Positions 1 through 49,197 of a DNA stretch of 64,000 nt are shown piece by piece. How positions within the stretch are numbered: position 1 is the first letter of the stretch; every line of letters starts with the position of its first letter. The notes under the pieces are model-generated. The model searched no databases. It was not told the origin of the DNA and was given only the letters and a program-made list of their open reading frames with translations. Both the position numbers and the translations under genes were made by a program. Where the stretch lies: NCBI RefSeq assembly GCF_041381155.1, contig NC_091139.1:9052383-9116382 (forward strand), in the 5' to 3' direction. The stretch is from Argopecten irradians (Eukaryota; Mollusca; Bivalvia; Pectinida; Pectinidae).

Positions 1-110
1 AAAATTCGTTGTTTTTTCCGTTCTTTGTCTTAGATGACAAATCTTATTGTAGGTTATAGAAGTTGATCTTTGTTTATGAGATTTTAAAACTATGCTGTTC
101 TTTGTTTCAG

Positions 111-3100
111 ATGTTAAAGTTCGGTGTAGGCAATAGATGGGCATATACACCAGTGATGCTCACCCAATTTACACAATGCATACCGAAAAGACTACAAGCA
201 CAAGGACATAGCAATTTCGCAATCAACTACGATGTATGGTTAGCGTTAAATCATAGATTTAGGCAAAGGTAATGTCAAGTGAATATCCTATAATCTGTCT
301 AATAATGCAGAAGAAAATCAACTATCCAAAGTTAGTTATATCATATATAGATATAGGTATATTGTATCATATTTTCTTACACATTTTTTTTAAACATTTT
401 TTTATTCAACATTGCATGTAAATATCAATATATGTTCCTATTTCCATATTTCATGATTTTATTTTTAAACAATCTAACATCTCTCTCTCTTTATTGCGAA
501 CCATCCATCCAAATCCCCTTAATATAAATAAACGCATTTTTAAAAGAAAAAAATATATCAAGAAAGACAATTCTTTGTGAAGTAAAATAAAAAAAATAAA
601 ATAATCTATATTAAATGTGATCAAACATTTTTCACCAATTCTGTTTACTCTATAAATTTCGACTCTTTATTGTTTTCTGCAGAGTTGTTGACCCGAACAA
701 AGACATCATGACCGCTCGATGGAACCTATTTGAGGACACAGATTGGTGGATGCCAGTAACAGAGGGGTTCTGGGAAATGAGGAAAGTGAAAAATCGTATG
801 CAGAAAGAAAAAGACGAAACGACAACAAAATCATACATAGCTGACTTTCCGGGTAAGAAATGTGGAACATTGAAGGCCTACTCTTGAGCTACACATATAG
901 AGTACATTAAAATCTGCGTTAGTGGCCATCTCTGTACAAAGACCACCCGTTTATTAAGATCACTTTATCGAGGTCCTAAAATAGTAATTTTGCCCTGTGT
1001 ATAAAGACCACTTGGCTAAAAGGACCATTTTGCTTTGATTCCTTTGTGTGGTCTTGACAGATAGGTTTGCCTGTATATTAAGTTATTCTTAACGAATGTA
1101 GGCCACGGAATATCGATAACCACCATAGATATTATTAAATGATGTGTTATTTCTAGACATCATGAATAGTTGTTGTAAGCAAGACTTAAATATAAACTGA
1201 CAACGCACTATTAAAAGAGCATTATTATCTCTGACAGGTTTAATTTAAATACAGTGACACTACTAAGCAAACAGTTTTATTTATTTATTGGAACTGTATA
1301 GTTTTATTTTCTTTACAGGAAACCATACATCGTTCTCCATAAATGATATCAACGCTATAAATTCTATGGAATTGCTGAAGGGCACTGTTATATTAGAGAC
1401 CATTGGACAAGCAAATGTCACTTTTGAAGCTGGGGGGAAAGCCGAGGTAGGTCTTGAAGTTTATTTTCCACATATTTTTATATATCTTATATAGGTCTGG
1501 TGACCTTAGTAAAGTGATATAAAGATCAAATTCTGCGTTTGAATACATTATTCGTTTAAAATGGCCAAGTTCGTACAGTAGAACCATACACTCTAACTAC
1601 ATTGCAAATTTTAACCGCCGTTAGATAAGTATGCAATAAATTGTGTCTCAGTTACTATCTGGAAAAGACTATAAGTAAAGTATAGAATGTATTGTGTTTC
1701 AGTTGCTCTCTGGAAAAGACTATAGGATCCATACTATATAATGTATAGAATGTATTGTGTTTCAGTTGCTATCTGGAAAAGACTATTAGATCCATACTAT
1801 ATAATGTATAGAATGTATTGTGTTTCAGTTGCTATCTGGAAAAGACTATTAGATCCATACTATATAATGTATAGAATGTATTGTGTTTCAGTTGCTATCT
1901 GGAAAAGACTATAGGATCCATACTATATAATGTATAGAATGTATTGTGTTTCAGTTGCTATCTGGAAAAGACTATTAGATCCATACTATATAATGCATAG
2001 AATGTATCGTGTTTCAGTTGCTATCTGGAAAAGACTATAAGATCCATACTATATCGCCCTCCTATTATGTACTCTCAAGACAGATGTTGTCGAATAACAC
2101 GAGGTTCAATAGGTACAAAGAGGCACTGGCGCAGAAGAAGAGTGGCCAAGGTAAGTTGTCAATGCTTTCCGTACCTCGCGTTCTTTATTCTCGCAGATAG
2201 ACTGCGGATATATGATATTCCATTAACTAAAATTAACTGAAAAAATGATGGAAAATAGCAGAATAAATGTCTCTACTCGTAGCGAAGAAACACACATTTT
2301 CAGAATGGCCACTAAAAGGATCCCGTTTTTAAAATTATATAAATACTAATATAAGTCTTTCGACACGACACCTGCTACATATGTGTTACATTTTATTTCT
2401 AAATCACAAAATAATGATTTATTTCGCTTTAATTTAATTGCAAGTATATTAAATATGATAGTATTTTCTGTAAATACTTATTAACACGTAATCTAACTAA
2501 AGCTGATCATCTGTGAATTTACAACATAATTGTATCGTCTTAAGACTAAGTCTGATCGCAATTATGTTCTAATACTATGTTTTAATGCACAAACGATAAA
2601 CAATTTACTCGTTAACATCGATAACAGAACATGTTAAATAACTTATAAATCATTTTCGATGAACTTGGTGCAAGCACGCGAGGATTCATATTTCGAGAGA
2701 AAAACCTCGCTTTACCCCTGGGGTTTTCACGTTCGTGCCAGTGTTCAATCCCCACCCTCTTAGCTAAAAAGAGAATGATTATCCGCTACACCACCAGAAA
2801 CCCTCTATAACATGCGTATACAATAGTCGAACTACTCCGTAGAAGTAGTTTTATTTGGAAATTACTTTTTGAACTTTGACGAAGTGGAATTTTAAATTTC
2901 AATTTTCTCTTGATTTGCAGACCCAAACGGAACATTATTGAAGGAATTCGACCAAAGAGAGCTACATATGTTCAATTTCATTTTGGAAAAAAAGAAGAAG
3001 GATTCAGATGCGAAGAAATTCGGTCCAGACTGGAATTTGGAAACCTTCCTGACATTCTTGAAACATAAATATACCGTTATGAAACATGGGTATGTTGGTT

Positions 3101-3862
3101 TATTTGCGTTTTTGTAAAGCCAAAACATTTGTATAAAACCCATGATTTTCTAATATAATGATGAAATTAGTTTAAACTTTGAGAAACTAATGATTTTAAA
3201 CGGTTGCCACTTTCAGCACTTTTGTGTTCAAGATTTTTTCTGTATTACCCATATTTTATGCATACACATGTATAATATTAATGCAAAATAAGAATCAATT
3301 AAGGACCTTTGTTTAGGTTCATATGGTGTTATACCGCCCGGGTAGAATTAATATTTTTAATCCTACCTGGGCGGCATAATAGCATATGGACCAAAAAAAG
3401 GGTCCTTAATATCTATATAAGATACGTAGTTTCTTTAACAAATGTCAAAAACATTCTCCATCGTGCATTTTAATAACAAGAAAAGCTATGACCGTAGGAT
3501 GCGACCCTGAAAAAATGCAACGTTCCGGCAATGTTGTCACAAAAGAAAAAATGGAAACACGGAGTCGATAAACTGTATATTTAACGTCACATGACCATAT
3601 ATTAACCAATGAGAATGGTGAAAAATCTTAGCATATCAAATATAAGATGTTATAAAGTTTTTGATTATGTATTTAGAATTGTGAATATTTTAATGCCTCT
3701 TCAACTTGAACGACATGAACTTGAACATGCGCATTGCTTATTATAGGACATCTTTTATTTGTTCTATGTTTATGTTTTAGATTGATCATATCCATGGCAG
3801 CCATTCGGAGTATCGCAGGCGGAGAGCCATTTACTAAATACATCACTCGAAGACCATTTTGA
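111..3862 (+). CDS. GGCX: Gamma-glutamyl carboxylase-like gene 1, 3' part
   Basis: Vitamin K-dependent gamma-carboxylase, C-terminal part only; the earlier exons lie before the window. Coding exons are 111-268, 683-852, 1319-1446, 2018-2150, 2921-3089 and 3781-3862 (stop TGA at 3860). All introns are GT-AG and the phases join without a break. Matches to the vertebrate enzyme are visible in order: NYDVWLALNHRFRQR (human FDIW..NDRFQQR), DPNKDIMTARW, YIADFPG, the LLKGTVILE beta-strand stretch, LSGKDYKIHTISPS, and a C-terminal helix exon ending TRRPF. The third exon (128 nt) has exactly the length of its counterpart in gene 2. The family acts in the ER membrane, converting Glu to Gla with vitamin K hydroquinone, CO2 and O2. 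The catalytic lysine region is not in view, so activity cannot be judged. The acceptor at 2017 sits in a tandem array that copies it six times. About 40% identity to gene 2 in the DPNG exon marks an old duplication. Confidence 0.92.
1632..2017 (+). repeat. 63-bp tandem array duplicating a splice acceptor and exon start
   Basis: The unit carries TGTGTTTCAG followed by TTGCTATCTGGAAAAGACTA. The last unit runs into the true exon at 2018. Acceptor-like AGs end at 1651, 1702, 1765, 1828, 1891 and 1954, and the true one at 2017; all but the first spacing are exactly 63 bp. Each upstream copy reads LLSGKDY and then meets an in-frame TAG, or a TAA a few codons later. Using a decoy acceptor would therefore truncate the protein. 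Confidence 0.95.
2720..2803 (-). other. tRNA-like sequence, possible tRNA-derived SINE head
   Basis: On the minus strand a segment starting GGGTTTC has an A-box-like TGGTGTAGCGG, a 5-bp anticodon-type stem CTCTT/AAGAG around a 7-base loop, a weak B-box-like GGATTGAACAC, and a closing GAAAACCC. The T-stem does not pair well, so a working tRNA is unlikely. It lies in the intron of gene 1 between exons 2018-2150 and 2921-3089. Confidence 0.3.
3298..3410. mobile_element. Hairpin MITE, 113 bp
   Basis: An imperfect palindrome: ATTAAGGACC at the left pairs with GGTCCTTAAT at the right, and the arms continue through CATATGG...TACCGCCCGGGTAG and its complement around an AT-rich loop. It has no coding content and sits in the last intron of GGCX-like gene 1. 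Confidence 0.75.
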
Positions 3863-3916
3863 ATATTTTCGTGACGAACACATTTTACACACGAGTTTAG
3901 GTAATGAGATTGTTTT

Positions 3917-7650: not shown

Positions 7651-10600
7651 ATGGCGTCTTTGTCGAGGAGACAAACGAAAATTAACCAAAGTGGAAGAAC
7701 AGATTTTACTGAAAACAATGGGAAAGACTTAGGACCTGCACCGAAGACTGACATTGGTGGCTTTAGACAACTATTTGGTTTTGAATTGCGGGATTTCACA
7801 TCGTGGCGATCTTTTGTAAGGTTACTATGTAGACCGACCGACCCAGCCGCTATAGGGGCACTTCGATTTTTCTATGGTAATGTATCTATTGTTAACAGTT
7901 CAATTAATATTTAAACAATCACTCCTACTTCTGCCACACATACGTCAATAGTTCGAATAATACAATTATAGTTGTCTTAATAACTAGGTAAACCATGCAC
8001 TTTGGTATATCACAGTTTATGTAAATTTTGCAGAATGTATCCACTTGTTTCAGTATACCTTTAAACATTAATTAAAGTATCAGATTACAGAATGGTTGAA
8101 AGTTCTACAACATCTTGCAGCTATGATCATTGAATAAGGCTATTATATTATTACAAACTCTTGGAATCTATAAGGACTAAATAATGACAGTTATTTTGTT
8201 CTTATATACTTTAACAGAAATTAGAAGTTCAATTTCTTTAATCATCTTTCTGCTTCAACATTATATCTAACTTATATTTTTTTTATAATTTAGTTTATAA
8301 CCTTTTATATATGTTTCATTGAAATCACTAGCTTATTTAATATAATTCCCAGCTCTGCGTATCCCAAAAGATATACCCCGAAGGTGTTTTTGTAGAGTGA
8401 ATGTCCTCAGAAACTTTAAGCTACCTAGACGTGTGGTTTATGTATAGCCAAGGGGCAATTGAACCACATTGGTAGCCCTGCTGATATCAATGTTAAAAGC
8501 TAAGTTATGGTGAAAATGATAATTATCCAGTCTTTTGAGTGTAAAGTTGTCACATCCCTTTACGGTCCATCGATCAAATGAGTAGGATCAAGAAAAACAA
8601 ATTCCATCTGCAGAAACTGAGTATTTAAGAAAATGATGTATTTTTAATGGAAAACGAAGAAGATAAATATGTTTTTGGTTTTGGTCAAAGTTGTTGTGAC
8701 TGTTCCCTTAGTACCAACGAAACGAATTGTATATTTTCTTGTTATCTATTAGATTTTGGCACATAATACATAGTGTCAAGATAGCTTAATCCTGACAACA
8801 ATTTTCATTTAAAAACTGTCCTTCCTCTAGTTTTACATCTGACCCTGAACACTTTGTTATGTTTTACTCATTACTTCTCCTCTGTTTCAGATCTTACTTC
8901 ACCACTAAAAAATGCTAATTTATTAATTTGCTATTTTGCTAATTTGCTAATACATAATAAGTGTCAGTTTGCATGTTTTGATGTTTACTGATTTAGTCCC
9001 AGTAACGATGTTAATCCTTAGTGGTTTTCAATCTCGACCATCGAGTCTATTAATAATTTTAGGGTTAAAGACAAAAATGTAATTCGGTCATCCTCCCCCA
9101 CAAATTAATTTCATTTGTAAAACACTGTGCGTCTTATTGTCCAAATATTACCTGGAATGATGTAACTTCCGCTTCCTGTTATAATCACGGAGGATCTACA
9201 CATGTTTACTTTCACTTTTGTCCCTTTCCACAGGGTTCTTGCTATTTATTGATACACTGGAGGAGAGAGGAATGGGACAACAGGCCTACAGACGCTGGTC
9301 ACCTGACAGATGCTATGCTCCAGTGTTCGACTTCATTAAGCCCCTCTCAGTAGCATGGATGTATCTACTGTATTTCATAATGCTTCTAGGTACGCCTTTA
9401 CACAGGAAAACAAATATCAGTAAAACGCTGTCATTTGTATCCACCAAGAAATAAATCAACGATTTTAATTTATTCGTATCTACATAAGGTGTAGAAAAAT
9501 ACAGCCATTGATAACTATATACAACCGTCACTATATAATAAATTGAAAAGAAATATACCATGACACTTCAATCAGTATATCGGTCATATTAATTACTCGA
9601 TGTACCAATACTCGACTAGTATAATCATGGTACAGGTTTAAGTCAACAAAACTACTATTGCATCTCTTTCTCTGTTAAAATTAAACGCTGTGGTCCGTAC
9701 TGAATGCTCGTTTTGCATTTTTACCTGCAATTGGTATCATTGGGTTTGTGTAACTATGGTTACACGTGATATTCTGCTACATGCATCATTAGTATAATAT
9801 TCAGGTCTGTCTATCCATAGTAGTATGATTTATTCTACAGCCACAATTGATATAATAATGAGACTTATGTTTTAAAAGTAAGAGAAATATTTGTTTTAAC
9901 CACCGTTGGTATAATGTTGGAGTCTGTGTATCCATATTGTAATATTTCGTTACGGCCATTGTTAGTATAATCATGGGGTTCGTGTTTCCATTGTTACATG
10001 TGCTATTTTGCTACAGTCATCATTGGGATAATGTGTGAAGTTTTTGTAGCCATGTTTACAGGTGATATATTGTTACAACCACCATCGGTATGATATTGAG
10101 GTATATATCTCCATCCTAACAGTAATATTTCGTTACAGCAACCACTGGTATAATGTGTGAAGTTTTTGTAGCCATGGTTACATGTGGTATTTTGTAGCAA
10201 CTAACGTTGGTATAATGTTAAAGTTTCTGTAACCATGGTTACAAGTGGTATTTTGTTACAGCTACCATTGGTATAATGTTGAAGTTATGTAACTATGGTT
10301 ACATGTGGTATTTTGTTGCAGCTACCATTAGTATAATGTTTGGGTTCCTGTACCGCTGGTCACTGATGATATTTACCGGTGTATATTGGTACATAATTTT
10401 ATTGGACGGCACGGTGTGGAACAACCATTCCTATCTATTCGGATTACTCGCCTTTCTTCTACTTCTAACTGACGGTAACCGATATATGTAAGTAAAATCA
10501 TAGTTATAGTCGTAATATCACATTAATGTCAATCGTCAGCATTATGTCTTCTTAGTTAGAAGTTATCAACATACGAATGTAGACATAATTTATTTGTTTT

Positions 10601-16600: not shown

Positions 16601-19600
16601 AAGTTATGAAAGGGAAAATAAACCTTGAGGATCCAATACTTTCTCAAAATACTACTTTACAAGAGGGAGAGTCATTACTGGTCAGTATAATCAAAGATAT
16701 AACAGTAGTCAACCTTCGCTTAGGTCCATATGTCGTTATACTAACCTTGGGGAATTTCATAACGACAAAAAAACTGTGGGTTATTATCATCTACCATTTT
16801 ACCTGGCGGAATAAAACCATGTTTACCAAATAAGCATTTCCTGATTGTTATAAAATCCTATATAACATATGATAAAATAATAAATACTTATTGTAGACAC
16901 TAAACAAAATATTGCTTGCTACAATATCAACGTGTCGAAGCATACGCGAGAAAGAGTTGCCGTGTTAAATTCACGCAGGAATGTGCACTTTTATAGTGAA
17001 TATATATGTATAAACTTAATTGATTGCGGTAGAATGACTACAACAAGAATGCCTACAGTTAGCGGTTTATATACCGCGATAATAGACCTACGGGTGTAAT
17101 GTAGGTTCAGCAGTCGCGAGATTTATTCCCCAAGCTGATGGTTTTAACTACCATAAAACCGAATGAAACGCAAATCACCGGTGTTTCTTTACATGAAACT
17201 AGATTTGTCGCCGTAGGCATCTAAAACTGGAACACAGAAGATATAAACACTTTATGAAATGTTGCGATGGCATCGTTTATTTTTAAGGTTTCACATTTTA
17301 AAGTTGTTTAAGGATTGAACTGATATTTTAAATATCGTATCTTTTGTTATATAATAATTTCGTAAACTTAGATACAGAAATATGACGAACAAAACCAAAT
17401 TTACACACCACGCTATAGTATTGGTTTCCTGTGGCGTTATAACGATGTCAATCAAACCAGATTCCCAATACATTTTGCAGAGAGCTGATCGTTTATGATG
17501 TCTGAAAATATGGTTTATTTTTCGGGGTCTATGACTTGACAAAAAAATATTTAACCAGTGCAAATCGCTTTAAAACCATCATGTATCAAAACCATCATGT
17601 ATCATTTATTTCATAACTCCTGCAAAAATTCGAACTGTTCTTTTTTATTCAAACATCTATATCAAAACTTCCTAAATCAAATTTGATTTTAATTTTAATT
17701 TTTTTTGTTAAAATCAAAACATATTAATTGTACCTACATAAATTGCAATTTTTGATGAACATATAACGTATGGCAATTGGTAAGATATATATGAAACCTT
17801 CTTGTTTCGTGAGCACTGGGCATGAAGTTAAATTTCTTTATTCTTCAGTAAGTGAATTTTCTAGGAGAGATTTTAGCATCAGTTCTAACGTAAGTCCTGG
17901 ATTTCCAGGAGAGATTTTAGTATCAATTCTAATGTAAGTCCTGGATTTCCAGGAGAGATTTTAGTATCAATTCTAATGTAAGTCCTGGATTTCGTGTGTC
18001 TTTAACATCGTATATGAACTTACAGTTGGGATATTGACTCACCTAGGCTTGTGGTAACCTTCACGTAACACCATGATTCACCAGAACAATGACACAACAA
18101 TTGGTCCTAATATTCTTTTGAAATGCAAACTCTTTGTGATATCGTAATATACTAATGTAGGATAATTGAGTTCGCATGGACTATAAAGATGGTAAACTAA
18201 CTTATCCAAAATTAATACAGCATCTTTGGAATTACAAAACACATTAGTTCTGTTTACAATCCAGCAAATATATAGAAATATAGAGTGTTTTTTTTATTGT
18301 TCAGCTTCCAGCAAGAGATAAATTACTAGTCCATACCATATCTGATGAACCTTCTTACATGAGTATCAGTAAGCCAAAGGATACCAAGTTTGAAAGGTAC
18401 ATGAAGGCAGTGGAGGCCAAAGAAAATGGCGAAGGTTTGTATAGATAAATTATACGATAAAGAAGAATGATTCCATGAATGTACAGGCGATTGTGTTCAT
18501 AATAAGTGCATATTATTATCATTAGCGTTCTTAATAGTGTAAAGCTTGTTATTTCACAAAAAGGATGAATTCGAGAATGTTTGTGTCACTGTGTTCATAA
18601 AAATGACATTTCATTTATCTTAAAATTTGAATTATCATTAAAGTTCTATTTGTAAAACATTTCATTCCAAAAAGATGGAGTGGTATCAGGGATATTCAGG
18701 TCATTGTGTCCATGATTAAGATATTAGAATGACATTTGAAATATCTAAAATATTAGAATTACCGTCAACGTAGTTTTTTTGTAAAACTTGTAATTTGACA
18801 AAGAAGGAATGGTTTCCTGGATATTCAGGTGATTGTGTTTATGTTAAGGACATAAAAATGACTTATATCAATAGCGATATATTGGTAGAATTTGTAAGTG
18901 TCATAAAACAAAATGGATAGTTTCATTGATATATAGGCCGCTGTGGACACGCTGTGGATTAAGACATAAGAATGACATTTGATTTTATCTAAAATACCGA
19001 AGTTATTCTTAGCGTTCTATTTGTAAAATTTGTAATTCCAGTGTCGATAATATTCAGGTCACTATGTGCATAGGTACATAAAAATGACATTTGAAATATT
19101 AGAAATATCGGAATTATGATTAATGATATATTTTAAAACTTGTAAATCTACAAAGAAGAATGATTTCAGGGATGTTTAGGTCACTGTGTTCATGCTAAGT
19201 GAAAAATTCAATTTGTAATATTGGAAACACATGTATTGGAATTATCATTAGCGTTCTATTGTTAAAACTTGTAATTTTCAACATGTTTATCTGACAGAAT
19301 GTCGTTATCACACTCTTTAATGGCGGTAATTTCTCGCTCCCACTGTTACATAATTATCGTTCTAATCAAGGGTTTGGTTTCTTAATGTGCCATATGGTAA
19401 CGCTGTCGGCCTTTCTTTTGAGATTGTTACTTAACACATGTACACTGTATTTAGACAGAAAACATGTATACTGGTCTTATTTACTGTCAAACAATTTTCA
19501 AATAAAAAAAAAACAACAACAAGAAACAGAGTGGATGTATGGATAATGATAGTAACACCTGGAGTATGAAGAATGACTTTATAATATTACCGTTCTATGA

Positions 19601-22488
19601 ACAAATACAGCCATTTCGAGAGCGTTGAAGTAATATTTAAAAAAAAAAAGTTTCTGGGACACCCTCTGGTTATAATAGTTTGTTGTAAGTGTTGCATAGT
19701 CAGCTTAAAGAAGCTGTAGTATATCATTGCTGATATAGTTCTAATGTATAACTATTGATGACTTTGAAACACTAGTTTAACGAAAGTTGGTGTTAAACGT
19801 TTATCTCTAGGTGCTCCGTATACTTGTGTCAAGCCTGTGTCAAGCCTGTGTCAAGCCTGTGTCAAGCTTGTGTCAAGCCTGTGTCAAGCTTGTGTAAAGC
19901 ATGTGTCAAGCCTGTGTCAAGCTTGTGTCAAGCTTGTGTCAAGCCTGTGTCAAGCTTGTGTAAAGCTTGTGTCAAGCCTGTGTCAAGCTTGTATCAAGCT
20001 TGTGTCAAGCTTGTGTCAAGCTTGTGTAGCTTGTGTCAGGCCTGTGTCAAGCTTGTGTCAAGCCTGTGTCAATCTTGTGTCAAGCCTGTGCCAAGCTTGT
20101 GTCAAGCCTGTGTCAAGCCTGTGTTAAGCTTGTGTCAAGCCTGTGTCAAGCCTGTGTCAAGCTTGTGTCAAGCATGTGTCAAGCCTGTGTCAAGCCTGTG
20201 TCAAGCCTGTGTCAAGCTTGTGTCAAGCTTGTGTCAAGCATGTGTCGAGCCTGTGTCAAGCTTGTGTCAAGCCTGTGACAAGCCTGTGTCAAGCTTGTGT
20301 CAAGCCTGTGTCAAACTTGTGTAGCTTGTGTCAAGCCTGTGTTAATCTTGTGTCAAGCTTGTGTCAAGCTTGTGTCAAGCCTGTGCCAAGCTTGTGTCAA
20401 GCCTGTGTCAAGCTTGTGTCAACCTGGTGTCAAGGTTATGTCAAGCTTGTGTCAAGCCTGTGTCAATCTTGGGTCAAGCTTGTGTCAAGCCTGTACCAAG
20501 CTTGTGTCAAGCTTGTGTCAAGCCTGTGTCAAGTTTGTATCAAGCTTGTGTCAAGCGTGTGTCAAGCGTGTGTCAAGCCTGTGTCAAGCCTGTGTCAAGC
20601 CTGTTTCAAGCTTGCGTCAAGCGTGTGTCAAGCCTGTGTCAAGCCAGTGTCAAACTTGTGTCAAGCCTGTGTCAAGCTAGTGTCAAGCCTGTGTCAACCT
20701 TGTGTCAAGCCTGTGTCAAGCATGTGTCAAGCTTGTATCAAGCTGATGGATGACAAACGCTACCATGATAATTCTAAACAAATGCAATTTCCTTTTCACT
20801 GTTATTTTGTTTGTGGGTTTACAGATCCCGATGGAAAGCTAATGAAGGAATTCGACAAGGAAGATATTTATGGCTTTGACCTGATGATAGATGAAATGAA
20901 AAAGCAGAAAGAGAGACCTTACGGACCAGACTGGTGCTGGGAAGGTTTCGTCTCATTCATTAAAACGCGACTCTTCCTGTTTAAACATGGGTAAGAACAA
21001 CAATTCTAGAAGTTATCAATGCATGGATTCTAGCGCAAATTAAGTAGATGAAACCAATTATTTAATCTTGTAAAAACATTTAAATAATTTTTTATACAAA
21101 TATTTTACACATTTTTAACAATTTACATACATGTATATACATTAATTAGAAAATTTAACGAGAGCATTTATAACATATAAAGTAATTTTGATAATTAAAA
21201 TTTTAAAAAATATTTAGAAGAAAAAAGTACACATTATAAATATACTGGAACTAATTCATGTACCACATAAAACACGATAATGTTTGCGCGGGACTAGAAT
21301 CTCCAGTGGTGATAGAACATAACTTTTTGTAATCTTCTCGCTGAAATGACGTTAGCGCAGCGCGGTATATCATCTTTTAACGTCATTCCATCACCAAAAG
21401 AAACAACAGACCACACAAACGTTATCAGATATCACGTGGTACGTGAGTAAGTCTCAGTTACATTTATTGAATCAGGCATGCAATATAATGAAATATGATT
21501 GGTGATACAGATTATTATATAGGAACCATTAAGTAACCTACATTGTAGGTAGCGTGATGCACTAGCACAAATTCATAATAGGATGTTTTTCTCTAACGAA
21601 TCTCGTGCGGGATAATGAAAATACGATTCATGGGTTATATTCAATTTTGATTAACTTTTATAATCAACGGATCTCAAATAAAATTATAAAGCTTTGATAA
21701 AAAATAACTGTACATGGCTAGAATGACTTAAATTAAGAGATGCAGATTGATTCGTGCAGCGTTCATTTTCATTTTTCATTCAAACTTGGAAAAAATATAT
21801 GATAAATTTATTACCTTATTAGTTTGTCATTAAAATAAGTTAAGAAAAGCATCACTCAGAATTCATCAAATTAGCTCAGCGATGAAATTTTTGAATTAGA
21901 TGTTTATAGGAACCTATCACTATTATAGCTTTTTATTAATTGTTACCGGTAAAATATTTGTCCAATGAAGAGACAAGAATAACATGAAAGATATTTGCAT
22001 ACTAGATGAAATAGGCAGATACTTTATCATCAAACGTCCTGAAAACATATTCCTTTACATAAGAATTTAAAATACATTTGATGATAGTAAATACTTCATA
22101 TGGTATCATTATCATTTTTGTTAATAACTGTTCAAAAGACGTGTCGGTGATTGTATGTTTTGAGTTTGTTTACTGCTTGAGACATTGTGTTCTATAGAAA
22201 CACAATCTATTGATATACCTGTTGCTGACTCTTCTATACCATTTCTGACGTCTCATGACTTTGGATTCCATTTTTCTATGACTATGCTTTTTTTACTGAG
22301 TTTTTCTAATACTTGTTTCTGCTTTATACCGGGATAGTAATAATTTTTCTCACAACTGCACTCTTGCAGACTTACCTTAAATATTATTCTATTTCAGACT
22401 TTTCTACGCGTTTGCAGCTGTGCGAAGCATTCTTGGGGGAAAAGCGTTCGAGGAATATGCAAAAAGTTCAAAAACCTATTTTGGCTAG
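7651..22488 (+). CDS. GGCX: Gamma-glutamyl carboxylase-like gene 2, complete
   Basis: Vitamin K-dependent gamma-carboxylase, a multipass ER membrane enzyme. Coding exons: 7651-7876, 9234-9389, 10322-10487, 11074-11152, 12095-12201, 12949-13112, 13497-13666, 13877-14011, 14657-14785, 14895-15058, 15932-16098, 16553-16680, 18305-18434, 20825-20990, 22398-22488. They sum to 2178 nt, or 725 residues (human 758), with every phase compatible. ATG 7651 is the first after an in-frame TAG at 7624, with G at -3 and +4. Landmarks: RPTDPAAIGALRF near residue 60, WNNHSYLFGLLAF with His163 (human His160), IVYFFAGIKKLD with Lys221 matching the human catalytic base Lys218, HAMNSQIYSIGMF, GYSWNMM, and Cys102/Cys467 aligning with the human Cys99-Cys450 disulfide. 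All key residues I can check are present, so it looks functional. Several introns hold tandem repeats. The 3' splice site of exon 3 is inside one. Confidence 0.95.
9733..10321 (+). repeat. Degenerate ~61-bp array duplicating the exon 3 acceptor of gene 2
   Basis: About ten diverged units precede exon 3. Each carries a TTTTGTTACAG-like tract followed by CTACCATTGGTATAATGTT, which matches the first bases of exon 3 (CTACCATTAGTATAATGTT from 10322). The last unit is the real acceptor and exon start. The inner part often reads GTAACCATGGTTACA, a short palindrome. Divergence increases leftward. The design resembles that at 1632-2017, but the sequence and the intron are different. Confidence 0.9.
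15090..15535. repeat. AT-rich low-complexity array
   Basis: Irregular repeats of CCTTATTTTATATATTA, about 15-17 bp each, fill the 5' half of intron 10 of GGCX-like gene 2. An open frame made of I, L, Y and F residues across it is a by-product of the composition. Confidence 0.85.
17866..17992 (+). repeat. 44-bp tandem repeat, three units
   Basis: The unit is about 44 bp and contains GGATTTCCAGGAGAGATTTT and later CTAATGTAAGTCCT. Units begin near 17855 (partial), 17899 and 17943. Each holds an acceptor-like TTTCCAG and, 25 nt on, a donor-like GTAAGT. It lies in intron 12 of GGCX-like gene 2. Confidence 0.85.
18465..19290 (+). repeat. Degenerate ~130-bp tandem array
   Basis: About six diverged units recur. 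Shared landmarks are GTTCATG near a TCAGGTCATTGTGT stretch, AAAATGACATTTGA, ATTATCATTAGCGTTCTAT and TTGTAAAACTTGTAATT. The array fills the first part of intron 13 of GGCX-like gene 2. It has no coding content. Confidence 0.7.
19533..19585. mobile_element. MITE family B fragment
   Basis: The stretch with ATGATAGTAACACCTGGAGT matches the right terminal repeat of the element at 33670-33955 (GTGATAGTAACCCCTGGAGT). Only the end is preserved. Confidence 0.45.
19822..20744 (+). repeat. 11-bp minisatellite, over 80 units
   Basis: Unit GTGTCAAGCYT, with variants CAAGCTTGTGT and CAAGCCTGTGT, repeats almost without break for 0.92 kb and ends about 80 bp before exon 14 of GGCX-like gene 2. Eleven is not a multiple of three, so all three forward frames stay open and produce long artefactual frames with a 33-bp period (SSLCQACVKP-like); one even runs into the exon. 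Many units contain the palindrome CAAGCTTG. Confidence 0.97.
21258..21444. mobile_element. MITE family A, copy 2
   Basis: Inverted relative to the copy at 3917-4099. It opens ATGTACCACATAAAACACGA and closes TATCACGTGGTACGT. The shared inner blocks are GTTTGCGCGGGACT and ATGACGTTA...CCGCGC. It sits in the last intron of GGCX-like gene 2. Confidence 0.8.
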
Positions 22489-28325: not shown

Positions 28326-28482
28326 TACTTTTGGCCGGGATCTAGGGGGATCCACGTGCACCCCCCCCAACTTAACGAACCAATGTTTTTCTGAAGCCTT
28401 ATGACCCACTGATAACGAAATCGAGAGGTAACATTGTATAAACTGTGATATGGTTATGACGTCATCAAGATTGCCGCCATCT

Positions 28483-29180
28483 CGAATTTCACTAAAAATT
28501 GAAAAATAGTCATAACATTGACATTTTTCAACCGAAGAAGACAAATGAGGCATCAAAATGACCTCAATAGAACAACAAATACATATCAGGACCATATAAT
28601 CCAATATATGTAGTTATTTCTACACAGGAAATGAAAAAAAAATCGGATTTTAGCTCAACAATGGTAATTTTTAAGCAAATTTTTCATATTTGGCTTGAGG
28701 CAGCAAAAATGTTTGCCAAGAGCAAACTATTATTTCTAATCAGTTATTTGAGCTCTTATCAATCAGTAAAAACAACACTCGAATTTCACTTAAGATTGAA
28801 AAATAGTCATAACATTGACATTTTTCAACCGAAGAAGACAAATGAGGCATCAAAATGACCTCAATAGAACAACAAATACATATCAGGACCATATAATCCA
28901 ATATATGTAGTTATTTCTACACAGGAAATGAAAAAAAAATCGGATTTTAGCTCAACAATGGTAATTTTTAAGCAAATTTTTCATATTTGGCTTGAGGCAG
29001 CAAAAATGTTTGCCAAGAGCAAACTATTATTTCTAATCAGTTATTTGACCTCTTATCAATCAGTAAAAACAACTCCAACAAAAAAAACCAATGTTAACAT
29101 TGTATAAGCTCCGGTTATGCCGTCATCAAGATGGCCGCTATCTCGAATTTCACGGAAAAGTTCAAAATAGTCATTGACAT
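28483..29180 (+). repeat. Tandem ~297-bp duplication in the left foldback arm
   Basis: Units start with CGAATTTCAC at 28483, 28780 and 29143. The first two (297 bp apart) are nearly identical, so that duplication is recent. The third is more diverged and is preceded by its own copy of the outer-arm sequence (TAACATTGTATAAGCT...GTCATCAAGATGGCCGC). The right arm has only one equivalent unit (31300-31600). Confidence 0.9.
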
Positions 29181-38511: not shown

Positions 38512-41500
38512 TTATTTCAGTTTAATGGCCTTGAACTTAAATTCCTGTGGGGAATTTGTTAAGGTCACAACCGGTTCAAGCGTTGGAAGGTTGTCTTCGT
38601 CCTCAGGAAGAAGCTTGAATCGTTGAACAAGTGACGTCAGAAACAGGAAAATCTCCATCCTTGATAGACTTTCACCAACGCATATTCGTCTTCCTGTTAA
38701 ATAGATAAAGAATGATATTCTTCATTGTATTCCATATTTGACTTTAAAAGGGTTACGTCGTGATAAAGTATTAATAAAAGTACAGCTTGTAAGGTATACA
38801 TCTTTTTCATTTGATCAATTTATCACATCTAATTTGACAGTAAGCGTGTGAACTTATAGCGCAGTTTTTAGTGTCTTAATTTTCGAATATTTGCAGTGCG
38901 AAATAACGATTAACAATAATGTAATGTAAATAATTAAAGCCTAAATTCCATGTAGAACCCAGTTGTGTTAACCAATCAAAACGAATTAATTTCACCTGGG
39001 CACACTTACCTAAACCGAAGGCAATAACATAACGTTCTTTGCCATTAAGCTTCCCGTCATCTCCGATAAATCTTTCTGGGTTAAAAGTTTTCGGATCTTC
39101 AAATAGGGACTCGTCAAACATGACAGAATCAAGATTAGGAATAAGGGTATCCCCTTTTCGTAGAGTGTAACCATTTAACTTCGTATTCTCTTTTACTCCG
39201 TGTAGGAGCGAAAATGGAGCGATGTTACCCATGCGCAGTAGCTCATGAATACACGCCTCGGTATAAACCATTTCCGGTTTGTCGTTCATTGAAGGAAAAC
39301 GACCAAATCCGACAACGTCTCCAATCTCTTTTCTTAGTTTGGTTTGTACGTGTGGGTAGTGGATGAGAAACAGGATGGCCCATTTAATTGTAGTGGCAGT
39401 TGTCTCCGTCCCGGCTACATATAAGTTGGTCAATGTTATTCTAAGGTTCTCGTCTGAAAGAAAAATTTATATTTGATAAAATACACGTAAGTCTTACGGT
39501 GATATATTGATGGAAGTAATCAGCGAATGGTGATTACAATGTCTGGATTTCTGTATTGTATACTATTGGATAATTAAATTCTGAAGCTAACGTTTAGATT
39601 GTTTTATATACATGTTTCAACTAAATATGATAAAAAGTTAATTATAAATTCGTCTTGTAAGTGTCAATGTCATTTTTTAAGGCATCATTCAGATTCATTT
39701 CATTTTATTGTTTATATGAATATGATAATATAATATCAGTATACTTAGTTCGGCGCATTCGAATAACCATCTTCAAACTGCTTTCGCAATGCTGAATTCG
39801 TGTAGCGCGGTCATATTTTAACGCATCTGTTCAAGCTCGAAATATTACTATTTATAAGTGTACATTTAAAGTGAATAGTCGGTCAAATAAAACCAGTCTA
39901 AATACGTTCATTGGCCTTCCAAAAATCCTTATATACCAAAAATGACGGTCAAGTTCTGGTTATGTTGTCCAGTTTCGACCATTGAAATTATGGAAGTGCC
40001 TTGTGAAAAGCATGTTTTGAAATAAATTCGTGCAGCTCTTTGAAAAAGAGGCTGTGTGGAAATGTCAACACGGACATAGCTAGCCGGGAGGACGTTTTAG
40101 GATTCCAATAATATAATTAACTTCTTTGCATGATTTTGATAGGACATTTTATTTGTCCATTTCATAAGAAATTATACTGGACACAATTTTTACCGACTTT
40201 AGCCTTCCTTTGCCCGAATATTCACTTTAGAGAACGTTGTATATAGTAAGACAGACATACCACATAAAACATCTGATTCCCCCTGTGCTATTTGCTCTTT
40301 CAGGAAAGCGTCGATAAAATCTTTGGTATTTTCTTCGTCAAACGTTGCTCTGTGTTGATCAATTTGGTCCTGTAGGTGAGATTGAATTTTTCCTGAATTT
40401 TCGACTGTTGCATCGAGTTGCGTTACATCCCCGGGTAAATATCTGTTAAAGAAGATAATGATGCAAAATAAAAAAATATATATAGATGTTCCAAACAAGT
40501 TGTTTAACATGTTCATCACACTCAAGACAGTTAGAAGGCACGAACAGTCACTTTTTGAGGAACTTGTTTATCCTATAACTGTAACAGTTACCGTGACGAT
40601 TTTCTCACCTTACCACATATTACCACATATTACGTTATACATATATTACTACCATTTACTTTTGTGCCTCAATAAACATCAAATATTCGGATGTTAAAAC
40701 TTCATAAAGGCAAAAACTTGCTACAAGTATCGATTTTTCCATTGGGAAACATGAACAGTTATATGATAGACATATTTTACAAGTAGGTATACATGAAATG
40801 CTGTATACATGACGATATATGCGTTAATTTCTCTTTTGGGGATGTTTTTTTTTTAAATCATACAAATGTATTTATAATTATGTTGCAAGATTGCAAGAAA
40901 ATCTTATTTCTTTTGTTATCAACAATATCATTTTTATTCCGTTTATTAAAATATCAATGAAAAAATATTTTCTAGTGGTAAAACTGTTTCATAAATGACG
41001 CCTGCCATACATGTATATGTCAAATATGAGTAATCGCACTTTCTCAAACGAATATCAGTGGTTTAAAGGGAACCAAAATTCATTTTAAAAACACCTAATT
41101 AGCTTGACCTTACAAAATAAACAAATTAATAACAAAAAATATGATATCCAGCAATAAACTCTCCTGCAATCATTAATAATCTTTTAATTTATTATTCATA
41201 CTGCCTTCAGTAAGTTTTTTCTTATTTTTTCTATTGCAATCACACACACCTGAGAAAGGGGAAGAAGATTGCAATACTGGCTTTAGTGGAGAGGACCAAT
41301 TCCTGTTCTAGCATATGAAGCAGCCTCTTGAACTCCTCATCATCGTGGTCATGTCGCTGTCCAAACACAATACTACAGATTATGTTGGCTACACTTATCT
41401 GTGCGATGGCTCCGAGGTAGAAAGCTTCTCCATTCTTGTCAGCTAAAATATTGAGGAATATGGCTATTTCTTGTTGTATTTTCGTCTCAAGTGATCTTTT

Positions 41501-48345: not shown

Positions 48346-48837
48346 CATTTTTAAAACTGAAGATCTCGCGGGATGCGAGATTCTAAAGTCTCGTTGAGAC
48401 TTTCCAAGTCTCGTTTGGCGAGACTTTCGCTTTGCAGGGCTTGATGTTTAGCCTGATGCCGTAAATGCATAATTATATCTTATTGAGGTTTGCGATATGA
48501 AATCGCAATTTTATGATCAAGCAATGGGGACAGCAAGATTTCAGCGCACTACCTGTAAGGCACTGACAAAACTAGACAGATCCTTAAATGACTAATGACC
48601 CTTTTTTGCTAGGCAAAGCTTACTTATTACAATCATGGTCTGATCATCAGTAGATTGTCGATCTACATGTATCTAATAATCGACCTACTTCATGGTATTG
48701 AAAATCCATGTCGATATTATATTACAATGACATGACTGTGACCAGGGGTATCAAAAAAGACGAAATCGTTGATGAATTAAAGGCGTGATTCCAACCAGTG
48801 AAGAGATTTTGAAATTGCAAGGTCTGGGGGATATGCA

Positions 48838-49197
48838 TTGCAGTCTTGAATAGCCTGTATAGTATAGTGATTATTACGAGATTCCCGGAGGATATGCATT
48901 GCAGTCTTGAATAGCATATATAGTATAGTGATTATTACGAGATTCCCGGAGGATATGCATTGCAGTCTTGAATAGCATATATAGTATAGTGATTATTACG
49001 AGATTCGTGGAGAATATGCATTGCAGTCTTGAATAGCATATAAAGTATAGTGATTATTACGAGATTCGTGGAGAATATGCATTGCAGTCTTGAATAGCAT
49101 ATAAAGTATAGTGATTATTACGAGATTCCTGGAGGATATGCATTGCAGTCTTGAATAGCATATATAGTATAGTGATTATTACTACGAGATTCTGTTC
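48838..49197 (+). repeat. 61-bp tandem repeat, six units
   Basis: Landmark GCAGTCTTGAATAGCATATA recurs every 61 bp (CAGTCTTGAA at 48841, 48902, 48963, 49024, 49085, 49146). There are no spacers, so it is not a CRISPR array. It lies 160 bp beyond the stop codon of the P450 pseudogene. Confidence 0.95.

Follow-up and report, generated by a model that had tools for sequence, protein, structure and literature searches.

Tandem amplification of a 3' splice site in a GGCX-like gene of a scallop, compared with the mirages of amphioxus

Background

Tandem repeats lying across an intron-exon boundary have been named mirages in amphioxus, where those described include one in the globin gene BflGb6, with a unit of 150-160 bp present six times in one haplotype and three times in another (PMC3087553), and one in Adh3, with units of 10-72 bp (as told in PMC3087553). 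In the lancelet genes PGBD5 and TnC, repeats of 60 and 108 bp are described as including 5' and 3' splice sites (PMC3902484). The conclusion offered in the amphioxus papers is that mirages do not disturb splicing (PMC3087553, PMC3902484), the PGBD5 account stating of the Adh, TnC and PGBD5 repeats that they are thought to leave it undisturbed (PMC3902484). In human, internal tandem repeats have been described at the exon-intron boundaries of duplicated genes, some of them forming new introns (PMC2812944). The man-made constructs of Reed and Maniatis, as related in PMC9225289, placed equal splice sites in competition, and the upstream 3' site was chosen.

The array considered here lies before one exon of a scallop gene, called gene 1, in a window of 64,000 nt (the whole stretch of DNA that was analysed). 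Like the amphioxus mirages, it consists of the 3' end of an intron and the 5' part of an exon, repeated in several units before the true exon, with splice signals kept in many of the copies and with a homogenised middle and diverged edges. Its 63-bp unit is to be set against the unit lengths given above for BflGb6 and Adh3, and its host is a scallop rather than a lancelet; the PGBD5 and TnC repeats likewise belong to other genes and another host, and those of PGBD5 are called imperfect by their describers. The human boundary repeats are, as reported, also boundary minisatellites of duplicated genes, whereas the intron position involved here is an old one. The minisatellite of the human interferon-induced gene 6-16 (IFI6) is reportedly built of units that each carry a splice donor; there is a splice site per unit in both cases, donors in IFI6 and acceptors here. 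Competition between equal sites is shared with the constructs of Reed and Maniatis, in whose description the upstream site was chosen, whereas in gene 1 the productive site is the last. A search of open-licence literature found no mirages outside amphioxus. The kind of element is already known, and novelty may lie in the host phylum and in recurrence at acceptors of different ages.

Results and discussion

Only the 3' part of gene 1 falls within the window, its upstream exons being located in the stretch L003. The gene matches PF22777 with an E value of 9.6e-19, its upstream exon pieces, joined by hand, match PF05090 (HTTM) with an E value of 3.1e-69, and against the solved GGCX chains E is about 7e-25. 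The HTTM and carboxylase lumenal domains of the GGCX family are thus both present, and by these matches gene 1 is a relative of the vitamin K-dependent carboxylase, in agreement with the GGCX-like identity that an earlier, sequence-only reading of this DNA had given it. Since its exons as modelled read open and the HTTM pieces match so well, the gene is not visibly decayed.

The assembly contains two further GGCX-like genes, namely gene 2, downstream in the same window, and one on contig C5. The GGCX protein alignment runs without a gap across 1446|2018 (...GGKAE|LLSGKDYKIHT...), and the equivalent acceptors of the two paralogs, placed by translation and splice signals, are both in phase 0, at window position 18304 in gene 2 (...tattgttcag|CTTCCAGC) and at ...tctatag|CTACCAGC in the C5 paralog. 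Taken together, the ungapped homology and the paralogous acceptors strongly support 2017 as the acceptor that would give the coding mRNA, which bears out the proposal that the last of seven acceptors is the productive one. At the equivalent site of both paralogs, the acceptor scan described below flagged no upstream acceptor copies. The features of the region are listed in Table 1.

Table 1. Coordinates of gene 1, its repeated acceptor and related features in the window
Feature	Position	Strand	Details
Weak decayed acceptor repeat before exon 111	1..135, upstream into L003	+	Three copies, 77-78-bp steps
Gene 1, 3' part	111..3864	+	Exons 111-268, 683-852, 1319-1446, 2018-2150, 2921-3089, last from 3781
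Exon before repeated acceptor	1319..1446	+	Open frame, splice signals, GGCX protein match; donor gtaggt begins 1447
Diverged, shorter first boundary copy	1621..1675, left edge approximate	+	Acceptor ends 1651, weak, PWM -2.21
6.0 x 63-bp array	1676..2054	+	Tandem Repeats Finder (TRF): 63-bp period, 6.0 copies, 96% matches, 0% indels, score 695; acceptors end 1702, 1765, 1828, 1891, 1954, 2017
Productive exon, starts LLSGKDYKIHTISPSYYV	2018..2150	+	Ungapped homology, paralog acceptors; donor gtaagt begins 2151
Gene-2 acceptor-spanning array	9758..10344	+	TRF 9988-10340; unit about 61 bp, 75% match
Gene-2 exon equivalent to 2018-2150	18305..18434	+	Acceptor without array

Counting the diverged first copy, seven acceptor-like sites are found, with last intron bases at 1651, 1702, 1765, 1828, 1891, 1954 and 2017; the first step between them is of 51 bp and the following five are of 63 bp, both multiples of three. 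Each 63-bp unit crosses the intron-exon boundary, with 27 bp from the end of the intron and 36 bp from the start of the exon, and the copy lying at the array's edge, joined to the remainder of the exon, is the true boundary. On the exon side, 35-36 of 37 bases are the same as in the true exon start in five of the decoys, while decoy 1651 is the same at 23 of its first 24 bases and then diverges, with 10 mismatches in 37. Units 2, 3 and 5 of the array are identical, the remaining pairs of units have from 2 to 5 differences, and divergence marks the first copy; slippage or unequal exchange would be expected to leave such uniformity in the middle and such divergence at the edges. When the assembly was searched with the DNA of positions 1600-2160, simple repeats and very common words being skipped, the region itself was the sole match. 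As known here from genomic sequence, the gene-1 array has the anatomical features of a mirage.

These results support the tandem amplification of a 3' splice site that the sequence-only reading had proposed, the TRF array spanning intron end and exon start, and they confirm all seven positions and five of the six steps in its description of six acceptor-like sites placed before the true one, mostly at 63-bp intervals. Of its seven near-identical acceptors six deserve the term, the seventh, 1651, being weak (PWM score -2.2). Correct for every decoy (6/6, with steps of 51 and 63 bp) was its statement that each one keeps the frame and inserts a stop. Measured from any of the seven acceptors, the exon has a length of 1 mod 3, so that the frame is kept each time, and in 6/6 decoys a stop lies 21, 24 or 36 nt beyond the acceptor. 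Each decoy exon extends to the TAA at the head of the following unit (at 1676, 1739, 1802, 1865, 1928 and 1991), a TAG being met before it in decoys 1765, 1828 and 1954. All six decoys would thus supply the premature stop that a poison acceptor needs. Since the TAA common to all of them opens each copied unit, the stops are mostly one copied event, and their regularity is mostly a by-product of the copying of one intron piece, a matter of common ancestry and not of six separate events. That the unit is a multiple of three had a one-in-three chance; the other acceptor repeats reported below have periods near 61, 77 and 42 bp, which are not all multiples.

The question then is what could pick 2017 from among such similar sites. 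A small position weight matrix (PWM), built from 23 other acceptors of gene 1 and gene 2, gives 8.41 for five of the decoys, 8.09 for the true site and -2.21 for decoy 1651, and over the last 20 intron bases there is one difference from the true site in the five decoys and there are six in 1651. Because the five differ from the true site at only 1 of 20 intron positions, local strength cannot decide; choice by acceptor strength, with decoys at 8.41 and the true site at 8.09, was accordingly rejected, and the choice must come from elsewhere. Hiding of the decoys by RNA structure was rejected as well, the segment 1447-2150 having a folding z of +0.99, with 16 of 20 shuffles folding at least as well.

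In human genes, equal sites tend to be picked by cross-exon closeness where the flanking introns are long and by cross-intron closeness where they are short, with a switch between intron and exon definition at about 200-250 nt; the same source describes the upstream preference as reduced, not firmly reversed, for 3' sites (PMC9225289). The introns flanking 2018-2150 are 571 and 770 nt long (other gene-1 introns range from 304 to 1192 nt), and 2017 is the acceptor closest to the donor at 2151 of its own exon. Given these two circumstances, exon definition would favour 2017, by a rule that was measured on human genes. Decoy 1651 would give an intron of 205 nt, near the switch, though the site is weak. 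Some use of decoys is plausible.

Other acceptors were also searched for copies of their junction lying upstream (25 intron and 23 exon bases, compared with Markov-shuffled sequence). The sample consisted of 24 acceptors of gene 1 and gene 2, the paralogs on contig C6, two gene-2 exons being unlocated and left out. Three of the 24 were flagged, and none of one in the C5 paralog. The three are 2017 itself, with 45/48 positions, the gene-2 acceptor at 10321, with 42/48, and that before window position 111, with 32/48. No donor-side array was flagged by the same scan at 22 donors of gene 1 and gene 2, and 3/24 acceptors against 0/22 donors are too few to claim an asymmetry.

In the gene-2 array the true acceptor ends at 10321 and the exon starts at 10322. 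Eight scored upstream copies extend back to 9783, spaced by 56-62 bp except for a single gap of 117 bp; six of them exceed the null maximum of 29/48, that at 9956 equals it and that at 9900 is below it, and near 9842 there is a copy that does not fit the register. The AG is kept in three of the eight scored upstream copies. This array is older than that of gene 1. The repeat before exon 111, in which the exon start recurs at 34 and, beyond the window, at -44, passes the acceptor scan with 32/48 against a null maximum of 26 (40 shuffles), but in the looser scan (L006) its 32 against a null maximum of 30 was below the threshold and did not pass. Aligned over its full length to the true exon, its last copy scores 23, below the shuffle maximum of 37; the upstream copies match each other, at 65 and 63 against shuffle maxima of 41 and 49, respectively.

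The looser scan covered other genes, with 8 loci of the C5 paralog, 10 of a myosin gene and 13 ABC transporter exons; no candidate AG was present in myosin locus L044 or in 4 of the 13 ABC transporter exons. It flagged none of the nine evaluable ABC transporter exons, one of nine in myosin (L048) and one of eight in the C5 paralog (L022, 33/48). The L022 case was dropped because its AG falls among spaced intron repeats, about 140 nt ahead of the domain match. At L048:1257-1525 the myosin exon start TTTTGAACAGTTCTGTATAA recurs twice upstream, with 34/48 and 30/48, in copies 42 bp apart that lie 179 bp upstream of the exon, one of them with an intact AG. The total for other genes is one accepted case, weaker than those at 2017 and 10321, in 26 evaluable exons. 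As to the host, a myosin locus is identical at 208/208 residues to chains 1dfk, 1dfl, 1b7t and 1kk7, with 2ec6 and 2os8 scoring lower; the first four we take to be bay scallop (Argopecten irradians) chains and the other two sea scallop. Searches for a mollusc haemocyanin domain, made without a positive control, and for COX1 gave no match, and it is the myosin that marks the host as a scallop.

The acceptor samples are small and not random, and in them the GGCX paralogs are flagged more often (3/24, one of them weak) than the other genes (1/26 evaluable, one flagged case having been dropped), so that something particular to the gene pair is possible. We see an even chance that tandem amplification of 3' splice sites is recurrent across the scallop genome, affecting a few percent of acceptors and at different ages.

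Minisatellites are frequent in the stretches sampled. With cut-offs of a period of 20 or more, 3 or more copies and a match of 85% or more, there are 10 distinct arrays in 164 kb, a sample taken mostly around the three GGCX-like genes, and one of the ten lies in the 40 kb that came from elsewhere. In the window, an array of 61 bp x 5.9 at 48824-49182, with 96% match, looks as young as that of gene 1. In gene 2, the intron corresponding to that of the repeated acceptor holds, at 17858-17993, a repeat of 44 bp x 3.1 (95%) whose unit contains TTTCCAG and GTAAGT. Another gene-2 intron feature, at 19823-20744, is an 11-bp unit, CTTGTGTCAAG, present 84 times; 80 bp separate the end of this array from the exon at 20825, and positions 20128-20994, extending from the array into that exon, form a frame free of stops. 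Near the C5 GGCX-like gene, L037:5945-9068 is a 44-bp unit x 70 with 88% match. Elsewhere in the window are a direct duplication of 297 bp with 98% match (28481-29073) and, on the minus strand at 39005-39463, a cytochrome P450-like exon (PF00067, E 1.5e-47).

To the reading of the gene-1 array as a mirage-type, near-neutral minisatellite, with exon definition picking 2017 and perhaps some loss to decoys, we assign a probability of about 0.7. A 63-bp piece, made of 27 bp of intron end and 36 bp of exon start, would have been duplicated and later re-expanded, most likely, from the pattern of the units, by slippage or unequal exchange; 2017 would be chosen via exon definition and give the coding mRNA, some transcripts may take a decoy, meet a stop and be degraded, and copy number would be expected to drift nearly neutrally. 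The sequence-only reading had left the choice between neutral expansion and a poison-acceptor dial, and it is the former that is better supported, because minisatellites are frequent in the sampled stretches, acceptor arrays of other ages and periods exist and the amphioxus mirages are reported to spare splicing; the dial has gained no positive evidence. Such a dial, in which decoys compete with the true acceptor, the share of transcripts lost to decay depends on copy number and the array is maintained by selection for setting gene-1 output, would draw on the frame and stop found in 6/6 decoys, on five decoys as strong as the true site and on the statement that upstream sites would win under intron definition (PMC9225289). 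The regular stops, however, go back to one copied TAA, the equivalent acceptors of both paralogs do without an array, and the keeping of AG in 3/8 scored gene-2 decoys is unlike decoy upkeep, though at another site, and we consider the dial improbable.

Somewhat less improbable, but still unlikely, is a costly accident, with decoys taking a large share of the transcripts of a low-output gene 1 and the array tolerated through the other gene copies. The local equality of decoys and true site and the upstream preference described among equal 3' sites (PMC9225289) would both lead to it, and the assembly does have two further GGCX-like genes; yet gene 1, with open modelled exons and its HTTM match (E 3.1e-69), shows no visible decay, and normal splicing is what the amphioxus accounts report for mirages (PMC3087553, PMC3902484). 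Mis-assembly as the source of the copies, or of their number, is the least credible of these readings, and very much so. Short near-identical repeats are hard to assemble, and one amphioxus mirage is described as aberrantly assembled in a draft (PMC3087553), but the units here carry ordered distinguishing substitutions and the left-edge copy is diverged; the copy number of the array may be off, its existence hardly.

Conclusions

Classical tests of competition between equal 3' sites were man-made, whereas in gene 1 five locally matching decoys precede the sole productive site, so that junction use there bears on cross-exon pairing versus upstream-acceptor preference in a mollusc. How such decoys may decay is exemplified by the old array of gene 2, where 3/8 scored decoys retain AG. 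The scallop acceptor arrays would carry mirages from amphioxus into a distant phylum. If they should prove recurrent genome-wide, mirages would be no lancelet peculiarity, and each would offer, as a natural series of copy numbers, a test of cross-exon against cross-intron pairing.
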